From Sphingomonas cavernae (lineage in GTDB: Bacteria > Pseudomonadota > Alphaproteobacteria > Sphingomonadales > Sphingomonadaceae): a stretch of 64,000 nt of DNA. Positions 28,893-60,812 of this stretch are shown here, in pieces. The translations under genes were made by a program, and so were the position numbers. The stretch is from assembly GCF_003590775.1 (NCBI RefSeq), contig NZ_QYUM01000002.1, positions 1,054,001-1,118,000 of the forward strand, given 5' to 3'. The notes beneath the pieces were generated by a model that made no database searches, was not told where the DNA came from, and saw only the letters and a program-made list of their open reading frames with translations. Within the stretch, counting starts at the first letter, position 1. Each line of letters starts with the position of its first letter.

Positions 28893-29804
28893 CTAGATCC
28901 GCTCGCCACTCAGCCGCTGGCAGATCATGTCGAGCTGATCGAGCGAGTTATAGGCGAGCGTCAGCGTGCCACTCTTCACGCCGTGGTTGATGCGGACCTT
29001 CAGGCCCAGCAAATCGCCGAGCTGGCGTTCCAGCGCCTCGATATCAGCGTTGTCGCGGCTGCCCTTATATTCGATCGGCGCTTCGGCGGCGGTCTTGGCC
29101 GGCTTCGCCGCGCGCGCGAGCGCCTCGGTCTCGCGCACAGACAAGTCGCGCCGGACGACTTCGTTGGCCAGTGCCTCGGGATCGGTCGCGGTGATCAGCG
29201 CGCGCGCATGGCCCATGCTGATCTTGTCCTCGGCGACAAACTGTCGAACCGCGCCGGGCAGGTCGAGCAGGCGCAGCATGTTGGCGACATGGCTGCGCGA
29301 CTTGTTGACGAGCCGCCCCAGCGCCTCCTGGCTGTGTCCGAATTCGGTCGCGAGCTTCTTGTACGCCTCGGCCTCTTCGATCGCGTTGAGATCCTCGCGC
29401 TGAATATTCTCGATCAGCGCGATTTCCAGCGTCTCGGAATCGCTGAAATCGCGAATGATAACAGGAACTTCGTGGATTCTCGCTTTTTGCGCAGCACGCC
29501 AGCGGCGTTCGCCCGCGACGATCTGGTAGCCGCCGCCAAGCGGTCGTACGACGATGGGCTGGATCAGCCCGCGCTTGGCGATCGATTCAGCGAGTTCGGC
29601 GAGCGCGCCCTCGTCGAAATGCTGGCGCGGCTGATCGGGGTGCGGCTTCATGTCGGCCACCGCGACCATCTGCACCCCGCCCGCGCGCGATGCTGCCGCC
29701 GCGACGGGCTCTTCGCGTGAAACTTCGCCCAGAAGTGCGCTCAGGCCGCGGCCGAGCCCGTGATGCCGTTTGCGCGGCGCGCCCATATCGACGACGTCGC
29801 TCAT
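28893..29804 (-). CDS. parB: Chromosome-partitioning protein ParB
   Basis: A 303-residue ParB that loads at parS, spreads and segregates the origin region. The N-terminal GLGRGLSALLG segment is the part that contacts ParA. MKPHPDQPRQHFDEGALAEL begins the CTP-binding domain, GERRWRAAQKA is the conserved box, the helix-turn-helix region has EFGHSQEALGRLVNKSRS, and the C-terminus dimerises. I chose ATG 29804, overlapping the end of parA by four bases. parS sites recognised by this protein lie at 30.6, 31.2 and 33.1 kb. Confidence 0.96.
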   Translation of the reverse strand: MSDVVDMGAPRKRHHGLGRGLSALLGEVSREEPVAAAASRAGGVQMVAVADMKPHPDQPRQHFDEGALAELAESIAKRGLIQPIVVRPLGGGYQIVAGERRWRAAQKARIHEVPVIIRDFSDSETLEIALIENIQREDLNAIEEAEAYKKLATEFGHSQEALGRLVNKSRSHVANMLRLLDLPGAVRQFVAEDKISMGHARALITATDPEALANEVVRRDLSVRETEALARAAKPAKTAAEAPIEYKGSRDNADIEALERQLGDLLGLKVRINHGVKSGTLTLAYNSLDQLDMICQRLSGERI

Positions 29805-30586
29805 GCCGCCACCGCCTTGGCCTTGAGCGGCAGCCGCCCGATCAGTTCGCGCGCAAGCCCCATATACGCTTCCGAGCCCGCGCAACGGATATCGTAGATC
29901 AAGGCGGGCACGCCATAGCTCGGCGCTTCGGACAGCCTGACATTGCGCGGGATGACGGTGTCGAACACGACATTGCCGAGGCACGCGCGGACGTCCTCCG
30001 CGACCTGTTCGGTCAGGTTGTTGCGGCGATCGTACATAGTCAACGCGACGCCAAGGATCGACAGCTCGGGATTGAAGCGCGCGCGGATGCGTTCGACGGT
30101 GTTGAGAAGCTGGCTCAGCCCCTCAAGCGCGAAGAATTCGCACTGGAGCGGGACGAGCAAGGAGCGCGCGCCGACCATGGCATTGATCGTGAGCAGCCCG
30201 AGCGAGGGCGGACAGTCGATCAGGCAGATGTCCCAGCGCTCCGACGCGCCGTTCAGCGCCTTGTCGAGCCGGTGCGTGCGTTCTTCATATTCGACGAGCT
30301 CGATTTCGGCGCCCGACAGGTCGACCGTCGCCGCGATCAGGTCGAGCCGCGGCACCTTGGTCGCGATGACCGCTTCGTCGAGCGTGCAATCGCCCGTGAG
30401 CAGCTCGTAGCTCGAACGCGCGCGCTCGGATTGATGGACGCCAAGCCCCGTCGAGGCATTGCCTTGCGGGTCGAGGTCGATCAGCAGCACCTTCCAGCCG
30501 GTTGCCGCAAGCGCGGTCGCGAGATTGATCGCGGTGGTGGTCTTCCCCACCCCGCCCTTCTGGTTGGCAACCGCTATTCGGATCAT
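29801..30586 (-). CDS. parA: Chromosome-partitioning ATPase ParA (Soj)
   Basis: A 261-residue deviant-Walker ATPase. The P-loop is KGGVGKTTTAINLA (10-23) with the signature Lys of ParA/MinD proteins; LLIDLDPQGNAS and CLIDCPPSLGLLTINAM are the A' and B motifs. It forms the ATP-dependent gradient that pulls ParB-parS complexes apart. The lack of an N-terminal DNA-binding domain marks it as the chromosomal rather than the long plasmid type. It overlaps parB and rsmG by four bases each. Confidence 0.97.
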   Translation of the reverse strand: MIRIAVANQKGGVGKTTTAINLATALAATGWKVLLIDLDPQGNASTGLGVHQSERARSSYELLTGDCTLDEAVIATKVPRLDLIAATVDLSGAEIELVEYEERTHRLDKALNGASERWDICLIDCPPSLGLLTINAMVGARSLLVPLQCEFFALEGLSQLLNTVERIRARFNPELSILGVALTMYDRRNNLTEQVAEDVRACLGNVVFDTVIPRNVRLSEAPSYGVPALIYDIRCAGSEAYMGLARELIGRLPLKAKAVAA

Positions 30587-31215
30587 GATTTCCCCCGCTT
30601 TACGCCCTGCGCGACGATGATCGACGAGTCAGCGTCGGTGACGCTCTGTTTCACGTGAAACACACCTTGCCACGTGTCGCGCGCCGCTTCCAGTTCGCTT
30701 TGCGCATTCCGTCCCTTGGGGAGCAACCATAGCGTCCCGGAACGGGAAAATCTCGCGCCCAAGGTAAAAAGTCGGTCAAGCGGTGCGAAAGCGCGGGCAC
30801 TGATGACCGCGGCCTGTTGAACAGGCACCGTCTCCACGCGCACGCCCAACACCGACACATGCGCGGCGACGCCCAGCAGCTCGACAGCCTGCTTCAAAAA
30901 CTCGACCCGCTTGCGCCGCGATTCAACAAGCATCATCGGCCGTTCGGTCAGCGCCGCTATGATGAGGCCGGGAAACCCTGCGCCCGATCCGAGGTCGATC
31001 CAGGCCCCCACCCCAGCGTCCTTCGCCAATGGCAGAAGCTGTGCCGAATCGACGATATGTCGCGCCCAGACATGGCCGCGCGTCGACGCGGCGATCAGAT
31101 TCTGCCTTTCGCTCTCGTCGAACAGAAAGCCAATGAAGCGCTCGATCCGCTCCATTGTTTCACGTGAAACACCGATTTCCGATTGGAGCCAGGCCCGCGC
31201 CTCGTCCTCGGTCAT
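30583..31215 (-). CDS. rsmG: 16S rRNA (guanine-N7) methyltransferase RsmG (GidB)
   Basis: A 210-residue SAM methyltransferase that modifies G527 of 16S r[19 protein letters not shown] is the SAM-binding motif [17 protein letters not shown] is motif II, and [11 protein letters not shown] is the GidB signature. It overlaps mnmG upstream and parA downstream by four bases each. Two perfect parS sites are embedded in this coding sequence (30647-30662 and 31156-31171), so parts of the protein (GVFHVKQ and VSRETM) are fixed by ParB binding. Confidence 0.95.
30647..30662. promoter_or_regulatory. parS site 1 (perfect)
   Basis: TGTTTCACGTGAAACA, a perfect 16-base palindrome identical to the canonical chromosomal parS. 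It lies in the 3' part of rsmG, about 10 kb from the oriC candidate and beside parA-parB. Confidence 0.95.
31156..31171. promoter_or_regulatory. parS site 2 (perfect)
   Basis: A second perfect copy of TGTTTCACGTGAAACA, in the 5' part of rsmG, 509 bases from site 1. Confidence 0.95.
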
Positions 31216-33111: not shown

Positions 33112-33127
33112 TGTTCCACGTGAAACA
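33112..33127. promoter_or_regulatory. parS site 3 (one mismatch)
   Basis: TGTTCCACGTGAAACA differs from the perfect palindrome by one base. It lies in the intergenic gap between mnmE and mnmG, about 7.5 kb from the oriC candidate. Confidence 0.85.
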
Positions 33128-35205: not shown

Positions 35206-35904
35206 ATGGGCAACATGATCTCGATCGAGACGCTTCACCACGATGGACAATTCTCGACCTATGTTGCCGAGCCCGAGGGCGCACCGCGCGCGGCAATCAT
35301 CGTCATTCAGGAGATCTTTGGCGTAAATCCGGGAATTCGCGCCAAGTGCGACGAATGGGCCAAGGCAGGGTATCTGGCGGTCGCGCCCGATCTGTTCTGG
35401 CGGCTGCGCCCTGGTATCGCGCTTGACCCCGATATTGCCGCTGAGTTCCAGGAAGCAATCGATCTGCTCGGCAAGTTCGATCAGGACAAGGGGATCGAGG
35501 ATATCGAAGCGACAATTCGCTGGGCACGCCAGAAATCAGAGGGCAAGAAGGTGGGCTGCACGGGCTATTGCCTCGGCGGCAGGCTCGCCTTCATGACCGC
35601 CACGCGCACCGATATCGACGCCTCGGTCGGCTATTATGGCGTGGGCATCGACGGATTGCTCGGCGAGAAGCACGCGATCGCGCACCCGGTGCTGCTCCAT
35701 ATCCCGACCGCCGACCATTTCGTCGATCCTGCGGCGCAGAAGCGCATGCATGAAGGGCTTGATGATCATCCCAAGGTGACGCTGTTCGATTATCCAGGGC
35801 TCGATCACGGCTTTGCGACGCAGACGGGCAATCGCAGACATGAAGAGGGCGCACAGCTCGCCGACAATCGTACCGCCACCTTCTTTGCCGAGAATCTGGG
35901 GTGA
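35206..35904 (+). CDS. Dienelactone hydrolase family protein
   Basis: A 232-residue alpha/beta hydrolase. The nucleophile is Cys122 in TGYCLGGRLA, the acid is probably Asp170 or Asp174 in TADHFVD, and the base is His201 in GLDHGFA. The conserved Glu36 in QEIFGVNP that activates the cysteine is present. Cys as nucleophile and these motifs define the dienelactone hydrolase family; many genomic members have no known lactone substrate, and no chlorocatechol genes are nearby. It overlaps the following oxidoreductase gene by four bases. Confidence 0.9.
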   Translation: MGNMISIETLHHDGQFSTYVAEPEGAPRAAIIVIQEIFGVNPGIRAKCDEWAKAGYLAVAPDLFWRLRPGIALDPDIAAEFQEAIDLLGKFDQDKGIEDIEATIRWARQKSEGKKVGCTGYCLGGRLAFMTATRTDIDASVGYYGVGIDGLLGEKHAIAHPVLLHIPTADHFVDPAAQKRMHEGLDDHPKVTLFDYPGLDHGFATQTGNRRHEEGAQLADNRTATFFAENLG

Positions 35905-39066: not shown

Positions 39067-39510
39067 TTAGAAGGGTCTGACAACCGCCAGGATGACGATT
39101 GCGGCGGTGGCGACCCCGGGTACCTCATTGGCGAGCCTGAGCGCCTTGTCCGAAAGCCTGCGCTCGCCGCGCGCGAGTTTCCTGGCATAGCCCACCATCC
39201 AGCCATGATAACCGCTAAGCGCAAGCACGAGGAGCAGCTTGGCGTGGAACCAACCCTGTGAAAACGCGCCCGTGTTGACCGCCAGCACGAGCCCCAGAAG
39301 CCACACGACTGACATCGAAGGGGTGAGGATAATGCGGCGCAACCGCGTCTCGCGCTCGATCCATGCCTTGTCCTCGGCCGATCCGGGCGTCGTCTGCTGG
39401 TGATAGATGAAGAAGCGCGGCAACATGAACATGCCCGCCATCCAGAAGATGACGAAGATGATGTGCGCCGCCTTCACCCAAAGCCAGGTCGCCCCCAGAA
39501 ATCCTTCCAT
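39067..39510 (-). CDS. hemJ: Protoporphyrinogen IX oxidase HemJ
   Basis: A 147-residue membrane protein with four helices. The first has LWVKAAHIIFVIFWMAGMF with the conserved His16; FYRY-type motifs are replaced by RRIILTPSMSVVWLLG; and WFHAKLLLVLALSGYHGWM carries the conserved His-Ala-Lys. HemJ performs the penultimate haem step in bacteria lacking HemG or HemY. The start overlaps the hemE stop (ATGA), so the two haem genes are co-translated. Confidence 0.9.
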   Translation of the reverse strand: MEGFLGATWLWVKAAHIIFVIFWMAGMFMLPRFFIYHQQTTPGSAEDKAWIERETRLRRIILTPSMSVVWLLGLVLAVNTGAFSQGWFHAKLLLVLALSGYHGWMVGYARKLARGERRLSDKALRLANEVPGVATAAIVILAVVRPF

Positions 39511-40550
39511 CAGGCGCCGCCTCGAACCAGCGTCAGCAATTGCTCAACATGCGCGATCGGCGTGTCGGGCAGGATGCCATGGCCCAGATTGAAGATATGC
39601 GGTCGATCGCCGAAACTGCCAAGGATGCGGCTGACGGCGTCTTCGAGCGCGTCGCCACCCGCGATCAGAGCGAGCGGATCGAGATTCCCCTGAACCGGCA
39701 TGGTTTCAGGTAGATAGGTGCCCGCCCATACGGGATCAACCGTCTCGTCCAGACCAATCGCGTCGATTCCCGTTTCGCGTGCATAGGCGATGAGCTTGCC
39801 GCCCGCGCCCTTCGGAAAGCCGATCACGGGGGTTTCGGGATGGCGAGCCTTGAGTGCAGCCACGATCCGGATGGTGGGCGCGATAACCCAGCGTTCGAAC
39901 TGCGCGGGCGAAAGACTTCCCGACCAACTGTCGAAAAGCTGCACCGCATCGACTCCGGCCACGATCTGTCCCGACAGATAGTCGATCGTGGACTCGACGA
40001 TCGCGTCGATGATCGCCTCGAAGGCTGCGGGATCGCGATAGGCATAGCGCCGCGTCTCACCCTGCTCGCGGCTGCCCTGCCCCGCCACCATATAGGTCGC
40101 AACGGTCCACGGGCTGCCCGCAAAACCGAGAAAGGTCGTCCGGGCGGGAAGATCGGCTCGGACGCGGCGCACAGTCTCATAAACGGGCGTAAGCCGCTCG
40201 GGCGCGCGCTGCAACGCGGCCAGCGCGTGATCGACGAGCGGTGGCGAGAGTCGCGGGCCTTCTCCGGCCTCAAAGCGCAGATCCTGACCCAGCGCGTGCG
40301 GAATCACGAGAATGTCCGAGAACAGGATCGCGCCATCGAAACCAAAGCGGCGGATCGGCTGGAGCGTAATCTCCGCGGCTGCCTCGCTATCGTTGACGAG
40401 CTCCAGGAATCCGCCCTTCTCCGCCCTGAGCGCACGATATTCGGGCAGGTAGCGGCCAGCCTGGCGCATGAGCCAGACAGGGGGCACGGCTTGGCGCTCG
40501 CCGCGGAGTACGGCGAGGAGCGGACGAAATTCAGACGCGGAATCGGACAG
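39510..40550 (-). CDS. hemE: Uroporphyrinogen decarboxylase, apparently with a CTG start
   Basis: A cytosolic enzyme that decarboxylates uroporphyrinogen III to coproporphyrinogen III. WLMRQAGRYLPEYR, GFDGAILFSDILVIPHALG, FAGSPWTVATYMV and the closing FNLGHGILPDTP are canonical. GTG 40487 gives only 325 residues and begins inside the conserved VPPVWLMRQAGR stretch. The frame continues upstream through PLLAVLRGERQA, which is conserved in HemE, to a TAG. The only start-like codon covering this is CTG 40550, preceded by AGAGGGGA at normal spacing and giving 346 residues. I therefore annotate CTG 40550. The gene starts within the oriC gap, as in Caulobacter. Confidence 0.85.
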   Translation of the reverse strand: MSDSASEFRPLLAVLRGERQAVPPVWLMRQAGRYLPEYRALRAEKGGFLELVNDSEAAAEITLQPIRRFGFDGAILFSDILVIPHALGQDLRFEAGEGPRLSPPLVDHALAALQRAPERLTPVYETVRRVRADLPARTTFLGFAGSPWTVATYMVAGQGSREQGETRRYAYRDPAAFEAIIDAIVESTIDYLSGQIVAGVDAVQLFDSWSGSLSPAQFERWVIAPTIRIVAALKARHPETPVIGFPKGAGGKLIAYARETGIDAIGLDETVDPVWAGTYLPETMPVQGNLDPLALIAGGDALEDAVSRILGSFGDRPHIFNLGHGILPDTPIAHVEQLLTLVRGGA

Positions 40551-40708
40551 GACGGGTCCCCTCTACCTTCCAAGAGAGTCCTTCGAAGAAGGAATGTGGT
40601 AGTTGATGGTGGGTCGGATAGCGGGGCTTATCCTTGCTTGCCGGTTTTGCCAACAGCTTGACTCTCGAAGCACCAAGGACTCGTCGGGATTCGAATCCGT
40701 GATCCCCA

Positions 40709-40717
40709 TTATCCACA
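40709..40717 (+). promoter_or_regulatory. DnaA box (perfect)
   Basis: TTATCCACA, identical to the strongest E. coli DnaA box. It lies near the middle of the hemE-ppsR gap, 11 bases right of a 12-base perfect palindrome. Confidence 0.85.
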
Positions 40718-40831
40718 GGGCTTATGTGAATCATGGACAATTGGGGAAAGGCTGTGGACGGAATCGCGGCGAGCGGGGAGGAATCATCCCCTGACGATGG
40801 TGACGCGGCTTTTGCTGGAAAAATCCCGAAC

Positions 40832-40840
40832 TTATCCACA
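40832..40840 (+). promoter_or_regulatory. DnaA box (perfect)
   Basis: A second TTATCCACA in the same orientation, 123 bases from the first and ending 11 bases before the ppsR start codon, so DnaA bound here would also cover the ppsR initiation region. Confidence 0.85.
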
Positions 40841-40851
40841 AAGATGCGCGC

Positions 40852-41676
40852 ATGACCCGGCTCCACCTTCATCTCTTGTCCGATTCCACGGGCGAAACGC
40901 TTGAAAACATCGCAAAAGCGGCGCTTGCCCAGTATGATGGAGTGGAGACGATCAAGCATTTCTGGCCGATGGTGCGCTCCGAGGGACATCTTGACCGAAT
41001 TCTGATCGACATCGCACAAAATCCCGGACTGGTGCTGTTCACGCTCGTCAATCACGATATCCGACGCAAGCTCGAGGGACGCTGTCGCGCATTGGGGCTT
41101 CCGATGGTCGCGGCGCTTGATCCCGTCACCGACGCGCTTTCCAACCTGCTTGGACAGGAAGCCAAGGCGCGTCCGGGACGACAACACACGCTGGACGCGG
41201 CCTATTTCGCGCGTGTCGACGCGATCCAATTCACCATCGCGCATGACGATGGCGTTAATCCGGATAACTGGGAGGAAGCCGATATCGTGCTCGCCGGCGT
41301 GTCGCGCTGTTCCAAGACGCCGACCTCGATCTATCTCGCCAATCGCGGCTACAAGACCGCCAATATCCCGATCGTCGTCGAATCGCCGCCCCCGCCGCAG
41401 CTCTATTCGCTCAGGCATCCCCTCGTCGTCGGGCTCACCACCAGCGCGGACCGGCTGATCCAGGTGCGCCGCAACCGCCTCCTCTCGCTCAATCAGGCGC
41501 CCGAGACCGATTATGTCGATCAGGAGGCGGTGACGCGCGAAGTCGCCTTTGCGCGGCGGATTTTCGCCGACAATGGCTGGCCCGTGATCGACGTCACGCG
41601 CCGTTCGATCGAGGAGACGGCCGCCGCGATCATCAACCTGGTCAACGAACGTAATGCGGGGACTCCGGCTATATGA
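40852..41676 (+). CDS. ppsR: Pyruvate phosphate dikinase regulatory protein (DUF299 kinase/pyrophosphorylase)
   Basis: A 274-residue bifunctional regulator that phosphorylates and dephosphorylates pyruvate,phosphate dikinase or PEP synthase using ADP and phosphate. The N-terminus has LHLLSDSTGETLENIAKAAL; the P-loop-like motif is ADIVLAGVSRCSKTPTSIYL near 141-160, followed by GYKTANIPIV. The family does not distinguish PPDK from PEP synthase targets by sequence alone. It is the first gene right of the oriC candidate and heads ppsR-maf-aroE-coaE-dnaQ, all overlapping or nearly so. Confidence 0.9.
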   Translation: MTRLHLHLLSDSTGETLENIAKAALAQYDGVETIKHFWPMVRSEGHLDRILIDIAQNPGLVLFTLVNHDIRRKLEGRCRALGLPMVAALDPVTDALSNLLGQEAKARPGRQHTLDAAYFARVDAIQFTIAHDDGVNPDNWEEADIVLAGVSRCSKTPTSIYLANRGYKTANIPIVVESPPPPQLYSLRHPLVVGLTTSADRLIQVRRNRLLSLNQAPETDYVDQEAVTREVAFARRIFADNGWPVIDVTRRSIEETAAAIINLVNERNAGTPAI

Positions 41677-60725: not shown

Positions 60726-60812
60726 TGGTGCGGTCGAGAAGACTCGAACTTCCACGGGCTTTCGCCCACAACGACCTCAACGTTGCGCGTCTACCAGTTC
60801 CGCCACGACCGC
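60726..60812 (-). tRNA. tRNA-Leu (anticodon GAG)
   Basis: An 87-base tRNA on the minus strand. The acceptor stem GCGGTCG pairs with CGACCGC, followed by A and an encoded CCA. The anticodon arm CAACG-TTGAGGT-CGTTG places GAG at positions 34-36, reading CUC and CUU. The long variable arm with GGGCGAAAGCCC and the T-loop TTCGAGT fit class II tRNA-Leu. The remaining 305-base gap around it (60683-60987) holds only an imperfect GTTTCACGTG sequence at 60921. Confidence 0.95.

Follow-up and report, generated by a model that had tools for sequence, protein, structure and literature searches.

The 301-bp intergenic gap between the divergent hemE and ppsR genes of a Sphingomonas chromosome combines DnaA boxes at conserved places, a weakly paired segment and a crowd of GANTC sites, the sites of the CcrM methylase. 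The most plausible reading, to which a probability of approximately 0.55 is assigned, is that the gap is a DnaA-dependent origin whose replication state would be marked by CcrM methylation, a mark that perhaps is read by GcrA. The analysis centered on a 64-kb window (C2:1054001-1118000) of a five-contig, 4.24 Mb genome. Positions are those of the window unless a contig or locus is named.

The hemE-ppsR gap is the probable chromosomal origin

The genes and parS sites that place the gap are as follows.

28893-29984, minus strand: parB (Pfam ParB_N, 6.7e-35)
29801-30586, minus strand: parA (Pfam AAA_31, 6.3e-62)
30647-30662: parS, perfect
31156-31171: parS, perfect
33112-33127: parS, one mismatch
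39510-40487, minus strand: hemE (uroporphyrinogen decarboxylase; Pfam URO-D, 2.3e-111), coding probably extending upstream, perhaps to ~40550
40852-41676, plus strand: ppsR (DUF299/COG1806 kinase-pyrophosphorylase; Pfam Kinase-PPPase, 2.6e-93)

The initial annotation had placed divergent hemE and ppsR genes around a gap at 40551-40851, and the URO-D and Kinase-PPPase matches confirm this arrangement. The gap thereby occupies the position of hemE-type origins, between hemE and a COG1806/DUF299 gene. The listed hemE frame begins with GTG at 40487 on the minus strand, coding-like conserved columns continue to ~40525, and a CTG at 40550 fits as the start codon when the minus strand is read by hand across 40487-40550. 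In the family counts below the gap was measured from the initial residue of a hemE query with the GTG start, which gives 364 bp here rather than the earlier 301.

Among the best 80 of 570 PpsR loci the closest named relative was Sphingomonas sp. LaA6.9 (99% identical), and divergent hemE was present in 79 of the 81 sequences comprising these loci and the window; hemE was not matched in L036 or L071, which were left out. The resulting set of 79 loci includes the window and is mostly Sphingomonas or close genera by label, with one locus (L020) labelled as a Brevundimonas MAG. Addition of 27 further genera (28 loci, of which L240 was dropped for want of hemE) produced 106 family gaps, five of them exact repeats of another gap. 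A family member of 2.1 Mb (G306) gave no PpsR match. Across the class, PpsR matches were found in 203 of 289 genomes. Seventy-eight loci were drawn from the genomes with a match, mostly one per family; hemE was divergent from ppsR in 72 of these and the other six gave no hemE match.

Only three parS sites were found in the genome at up to two mismatches. All lie 7.6-10 kb from the gap and adjoin parA, parB, rsmG, mnmG and mnmE, as expected near a hemE-type origin, and the reversed control pattern had no genome match. Cumulative GC skew within the window was lowest at 35308, ~5 kb from the gap. The chromosome-wide skew check that the initial annotation proposed gave a weak signal: among 20-kb samples of C2, skew was negative in 15/20 to the left of the gap (mean -0.0116) and in 7/13 to the right (mean -0.0025; one-sided P = 0.15). 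As a strand-skewed motif, GGGNAGGG occurred 272 times forward and 309 times in reverse among the matches listed and did not place the skew switch; for trained 5-mers the noise close to the window was too great. An origin at dnaA, the case that the initial annotation had set against the gap, was not seen. The dnaA gene lies on C3, where skew was positive in 9/9 sampled stretches and hence does not change at the gene. Similarly, dnaA has been reported, in the part of a review available, not to be kept near the origin in Sphingomonadales (PMC8116508).

Gene context, the nearby parS sites, the skew minimum within the window and the conserved places of the DnaA boxes support the proposal of the initial annotation that the gap is oriC of the Sphingomonas chromosome, which is almost certainly correct. 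If the gap instead were a conserved regulatory region separating hemE from ppsR, and replication began at another place, the weak skew and the displaced in-window minimum would follow readily; set against parS, the DnaA boxes, class-wide synteny and the absence of a skew change at dnaA in the sampled stretches, that explanation is scarcely credible.

DnaA boxes and other conserved elements

The elements of the gap other than GANTC sites are listed in order.

40561-40610: least stable 50-mer, candidate unwinding element (stacking energy z = -2.99, 0.22 percentile of the window)
40623-40631, plus strand: conserved GGGGCTTAT, from family alignment columns
40647-40662, plus strand: conserved block TTGCCAACAGCTTGAC, with 13 of 16 columns at 92-104 of 106 and three lower (62, 85, 57)
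40700-40708, plus strand: degenerate DnaA box TGATCCCCA, two mismatches
40709-40717, plus strand: left DnaA box TTATCCACA, perfect, position conserved in relatives
40725-40733, minus strand: degenerate DnaA box TGATTCACA, two mismatches
40753-40758, minus strand: TGTGGA core, possible reversed weak box, conserved alignment columns
40832-40840, plus strand: right DnaA box TTATCCACA, perfect, just ahead of the ppsR start, position conserved

The two perfect boxes described initially are present in the same orientation, 123 bp apart from start to start, and the partial boxes correspond to the two with two mismatches; several DnaA boxes are typical of hemE-type origins. The entire genome contains 11 copies of TTATCCACA, and from this count the chance of two in one given 301-bp stretch is ~3e-7. 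The box is not enriched genome-wide, as the reversed control pattern gave 17 matches against 11. One other close pair, at C2:1374949 and 1375390, is inside an open reading frame. Perfect copies were absent from 40 of the 79 gaps, single in 30, and two or more in nine; the boxes nonetheless hold their places across these relatives, often with one mismatch, and two forward boxes with at most one mismatch were spaced by 121-125 bp in 40/79 gaps. The family alignment resolves into blocks comprising GGGGCTTAT, TTGCCAACAGCTTGAC, a GANTC, the left box with its reversed weak partner, TGTGGA cores and the right box. Gaps of the Sphingomonas trueperi/azotifigens group (L061, L063, L065, L068, L080) possess 11-13 GANTC and no perfect DnaA box, with only TTATGCACA at the right place.

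The initial annotation had reported no clear AT-rich unwinding region, which is not supported: among all 50-mers of the window, the segment at 40561-40610 falls in the lowest 0.22% for stability, and hemE-type origins characteristically include such a weakly paired segment. A second weakly paired stretch is located at 40701-40750 (z = -2.89). Relatives share the position of the first: in 100 of 106 family gaps the start of the weakest 50-mer falls into one of two alignment bins on the hemE side (67 and 33).

Around GGGGCTTAT, family conservation extends over window positions 40619-40634. The 16-base TTGCCAACAGCTTGAC block was exact in 17/79 gaps and within one mismatch in 54/79, the corresponding values in the 27 more distant genera being 6 and 11. 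An IHF site is among the features of hemE-type origins, and the block is a candidate for one, differing from the IHF consensus at one position. A strict IHF motif was detected in 3/68 other class gaps, and a looser form was not enriched there over the flanks. The YAACA of the block is separated from the conserved GANTC described below by 37 bases in 66 and by 38 in 14 of 83 gaps measured. A rightward promoter with -35 element TTGAC at 40658 was considered and rejected when inspection by hand gave no fitting -10 element.

CtrA sites accompany the hemE-type origins of Caulobacter and Rickettsia. The absence of TTAA-N7-TTAA here, as pointed out initially, is supported, with no TTAA at 40401-41000. 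The full motif occurs in 3/106 family gaps and 9/72 class gaps and TTAACCAT in 0/106, and certain hemE-type origins have been described as devoid of CtrA sites (PMC1914354, seen in part). These searches cover the motifs named, such that CtrA acting via another sequence may escape them. CtrA influences replication in Sphingomonas melonis according to the available part of a review (PMC8116508), and a single TTAA is found somewhere in 56/106 family gaps, which would accommodate an origin controlled by CtrA through a divergent or single half-site. In view of the motif counts and of the missing TTAA in this gap, such control is judged very improbable.

CcrM sites are crowded at the probable origin

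The gap contains eight GANTC sites, two of which overlap.

40576-40580: GANTC (CcrM) site
40660-40664: GANTC (CcrM) site, with GANTC at the same column in 49/106 family gaps
40678-40682: GANTC (CcrM) site
40687-40698: palindrome GGATTCGAATCC, two overlapping GANTC (CcrM) sites
40688-40692, plus strand: conserved CcrM site GAKTC, candidate GcrA site, in 95/106 family gaps and followed by G in 80/95
40693-40697: GANTC (CcrM) site, forming the palindrome's right half
40728-40732: GANTC (CcrM) site within a degenerate DnaA box
40761-40765: GANTC (CcrM) site
40781-40785: GANTC (CcrM) site

The 12-base palindrome noted initially is real and ends 10 bases clear of the left DnaA box; that it consists of CcrM sites is a feature absent from the earlier description. 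The window holds 179 GANTC in total, and eight in the gap has a Poisson P of ~3e-6. Within 860 kb sampled (~a fifth of the genome), to which the ranking applies and in which the dnaA and ccrM stretches were included on purpose, the densest 301-bp GANTC stretch falls here, with nine sites including one at 40540 outside the gap. It is followed by a stretch upstream of dnaA (seven) and by three stretches with six, one upstream of ccrM and one tRNA-like.

Conservation of the crowding was assessed in relatives. Over the 79 loci, GANTC density was 15.0/kb in the gap and 2.54/kb in the flanks, a ratio of 5.9, and the gap exceeded the flank in 79/79. Seven control palindromes gave ratios of 0.48-3.44 in the same loci, the highest being AGNCT. 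In 68 loci of other families the GANTC ratio was 3.45 and the gap exceeded the flank in 56/68. The gap was strictly the densest 301-bp stretch of its ~12-kb locus in 55/79 cases (11 ties, 13 lost), compared to 15/79 for AGNCT, and was strictly densest in 24/27 further family genera (three ties) and in 37/68 class loci (11 ties, 20 lost). Crowding of methylation sites at oriC, a feature of methylation-sequestered origins of the Dam/SeqA type, is evident. The most crowded gap observed has 19 GANTC in 388 bp (G324, L251).

Clusters elsewhere were recorded also. Eight GANTC lie between -400 and +100 of dnaA (L101 8340-8840; C3:948340-948840), and the stretch upstream of dnaA was denser in GANTC than the rest of the locus in 25 of 28 family genomes; of 30 loci, two were excluded in which dnaA begins too close to the locus end. 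Across 26 genomes the densities at oriC and dnaA showed no supported co-variation (Spearman 0.27, P = 0.18). Six GANTC occupy ~240 bp around the ccrM start (L201 3878-4124; C3:743878-744124). The cluster in the tRNA-like stretch, so judged from its translation, is at L096 2711-3281 (C2:1282711). GAATC is frequent in tRNA T-arms. Because the palindrome looks like such an arm, a tRNA remnant was considered as its source; this was rejected as ARAGORN finds only a tRNA-Leu at 60726 in the window.

Helical phasing of the sites was examined and rejected as a product of shared ancestry. The P value was 0.003 for both the 79 loci and the 27 family genera, the minimum for 300 draws, and phasing was absent in 62 class gaps (P = 0.68) and disappeared once each homologous pair was allowed a single count (201 pairs, P = 0.65). 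A GANTC within 30 bp 5' of a box was found in 23/60 class gaps, which by estimate approximates the expectation from site density. Genomes with no RAMA match (9/72) served as a control for the methylase and had a GANTC gap/flank ratio of 2.70, compared to 3.59 in the positives of other families. The six smallest, a subgroup chosen after the RAMA results were seen, gave 1.64; the remaining three are fragmented and GANTC-rich. This control is suggestive only.

A conserved GAKTC site beside the left DnaA box

One GANTC site, located 21 bp left of the left DnaA box, is conserved as GAKTC in 76/79 and 19/27 gaps. Eight of the 11 family gaps without the site belong to the 27 more distant genera. The site reads GATTC in 52 and GAGTC in 43 of the 95 gaps and its N is never A or C, compared to A 191, C 114, T 112 and G 90 at the other GANTC sites of the 106 gaps. 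On one ppsR tree of the 95 there were at least 14 T/G switches (31.5 with shuffled labels), so that the site itself was retained as the base at N changed, only within K. Its distance to the DnaA core TCCACA was 24 bases in 50, 25 in 13 and 15 in nine of 83 gaps measured.

For Caulobacter, the portion of the source consulted gives the extended GcrA motif as YGAKTCG or YGAKTCK (PMC7987155). The K and the 3' G fit this motif and the 5' Y is not kept (48/95), so that the conserved site matches it in part and is a candidate GcrA site. The match is a lead only, because GcrA of Brevundimonas has been reported in the same portion to have no extended motif (PMC7987155).

Methylation machinery and a model for the origin

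Both a CcrM-like methylase and GcrA (88.4 bits) are encoded in the genome; the methylase possesses a RAMA domain (74.3 bits), with a DPPY motif in its reading frame. SeqA was not found in the genome. Partial accounts from other species bear on how these proteins may act. In Sphingomonas sp. AAP5, GANTC was the most abundant m6A motif by PacBio sequencing (PMC8067484). Caulobacter has several GANTC in its origin and loss of CcrM leaves initiation control unchanged (PMC3973325), and in Agrobacterium CcrM alters firing at ori2 but not clearly at ori1 (PMC11514494). These Caulobacter and Agrobacterium results speak against transferring the methylation model directly. GANTC sites were counted upstream of cell-cycle genes by Brilli et al., with no conclusion drawn in the part of that study seen (PMC2877005).

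In the model favored here, DnaA would assemble on the two perfect boxes, left and right, which have weak reversed boxes between them. Probably with the aid of a bending protein at 40647-40662, it would open the weakly paired hemE-end segment (40561-40610). Passage of the replication fork would convert all eight GANTC, if methylated in this strain, from the fully methylated to the hemimethylated state at once. GcrA or another reader may recognize this state at the conserved GAKTC next to the left box, and firing or origin transcription would be altered until CcrM remethylates the sites. A methylation role is opposed by the intact initiation control of Caulobacter without CcrM, by the common abundance of GANTC between genes and by the 13/79 loci that are denser in the flanks. 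The skew value (P = 0.15), the unconserved 5' Y, the lack of SeqA, the 11/106 gaps without the conserved site and the 40/79 without a perfect box also weigh against the mechanism.

In a rival explanation, the gap is oriC and the GANTC cluster would act through GcrA and CcrM on transcription of hemE and ppsR, or of an origin-internal promoter, without affecting replication directly. GcrA has been described, in the sources as available, as a cofactor of sigma70 at promoters that carry methylation, and intergenic regions of Alphaproteobacteria as rich in GANTC. The cluster sits between two divergent genes, CcrM-less Caulobacter initiates normally (PMC3973325, in part), and the second densest sampled cluster and one of those tied for third are upstream of dnaA and ccrM, respectively, namely at promoters. 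This explanation accounts less readily for a gap that is strictly the densest GANTC stretch in 55/79 loci, with 11 ties, or for a GAKTC that holds a distance of 24 or 25 bases to TCCACA in 63/83 gaps, and hand reading identified no good -10 element with suitable spacing. It is considered tenable, if somewhat doubtful. A DnaA origin marked by CcrM methylation remains the preferred reading.

A stronger form of the preferred reading is a CcrM-dependent timer at sphingomonad origins, in which the hemimethylated GANTC crowd, read by GcrA or another protein at the conserved GAKTC, would block or license the firing of fresh origins and replace CtrA in this role. This proposal is rather unlikely. If true, the timer would perform the task of Dam and SeqA in E. 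coli by means of other proteins, and the GANTC marks found also upstream of dnaA and ccrM would couple both the supply of initiator and remethylation to that same event. The matter bears on how replication is limited to once per cycle in Alphaproteobacteria that have no CtrA sites at the origin. In Caulobacter the answer as to whether CcrM is needed for initiation control was no, in the part of the report seen (PMC3973325); the sphingomonad origin gives sequence signs of such a role. With these signs and one conserved site, a role in initiation is testable by one or a few point changes. The conserved blocks also provide an anchor for marking oriC in draft genomes of sphingomonads.

Comparison with known origins

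A sphingomonad origin near hemE is already in print: that of Sphingopyxis granuli TFA, from the same family, resembles the present region in its location, conserved DnaA boxes and putative unwinding element (PMC4741004). It differs in that the published account, in the part available, makes no mention of GANTC sites or GcrA (PMC4741004). Neither GANTC crowding nor a conserved GAKTC at a sphingomonad oriC was found in the open-licence literature searched, as far as its accessible text extends. The origins of Caulobacter crescentus (Cori) and Rickettsia prowazekii share the flanking genes and DnaA boxes, as partly consulted descriptions indicate, and several GANTC sites have been reported at the former (PMC3973325). 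By motif content, the Sphingomonas gap differs from these origins in the absence of the CtrA motif and in having one GAKTC whose spacing to the left box is kept.

In the Dam/SeqA system of E. coli, sites for adenine methylation are crowded at oriC, with another crowd upstream of dnaA. The 11 GATC in 245 bp of E. coli oriC are similar in density to the 19 GANTC in 388 bp of the most crowded family gap. The systems are unlike in that Dam and GATC operate there and CcrM and GANTC would operate here, with no SeqA found in this genome; CcrM of Caulobacter moreover acts late in the cell cycle according to the partial accounts available, a further departure from the E. coli comparison. The repABC chromid origins of Alphaproteobacteria are GANTC-rich and are thought to be timed by CcrM, in the excerpts available, and are driven by RepC, in contrast to the DnaA/hemE type encountered here. 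The crowd of CcrM sites and the conserved GAKTC set this hemE-type origin apart as a distinct variant.
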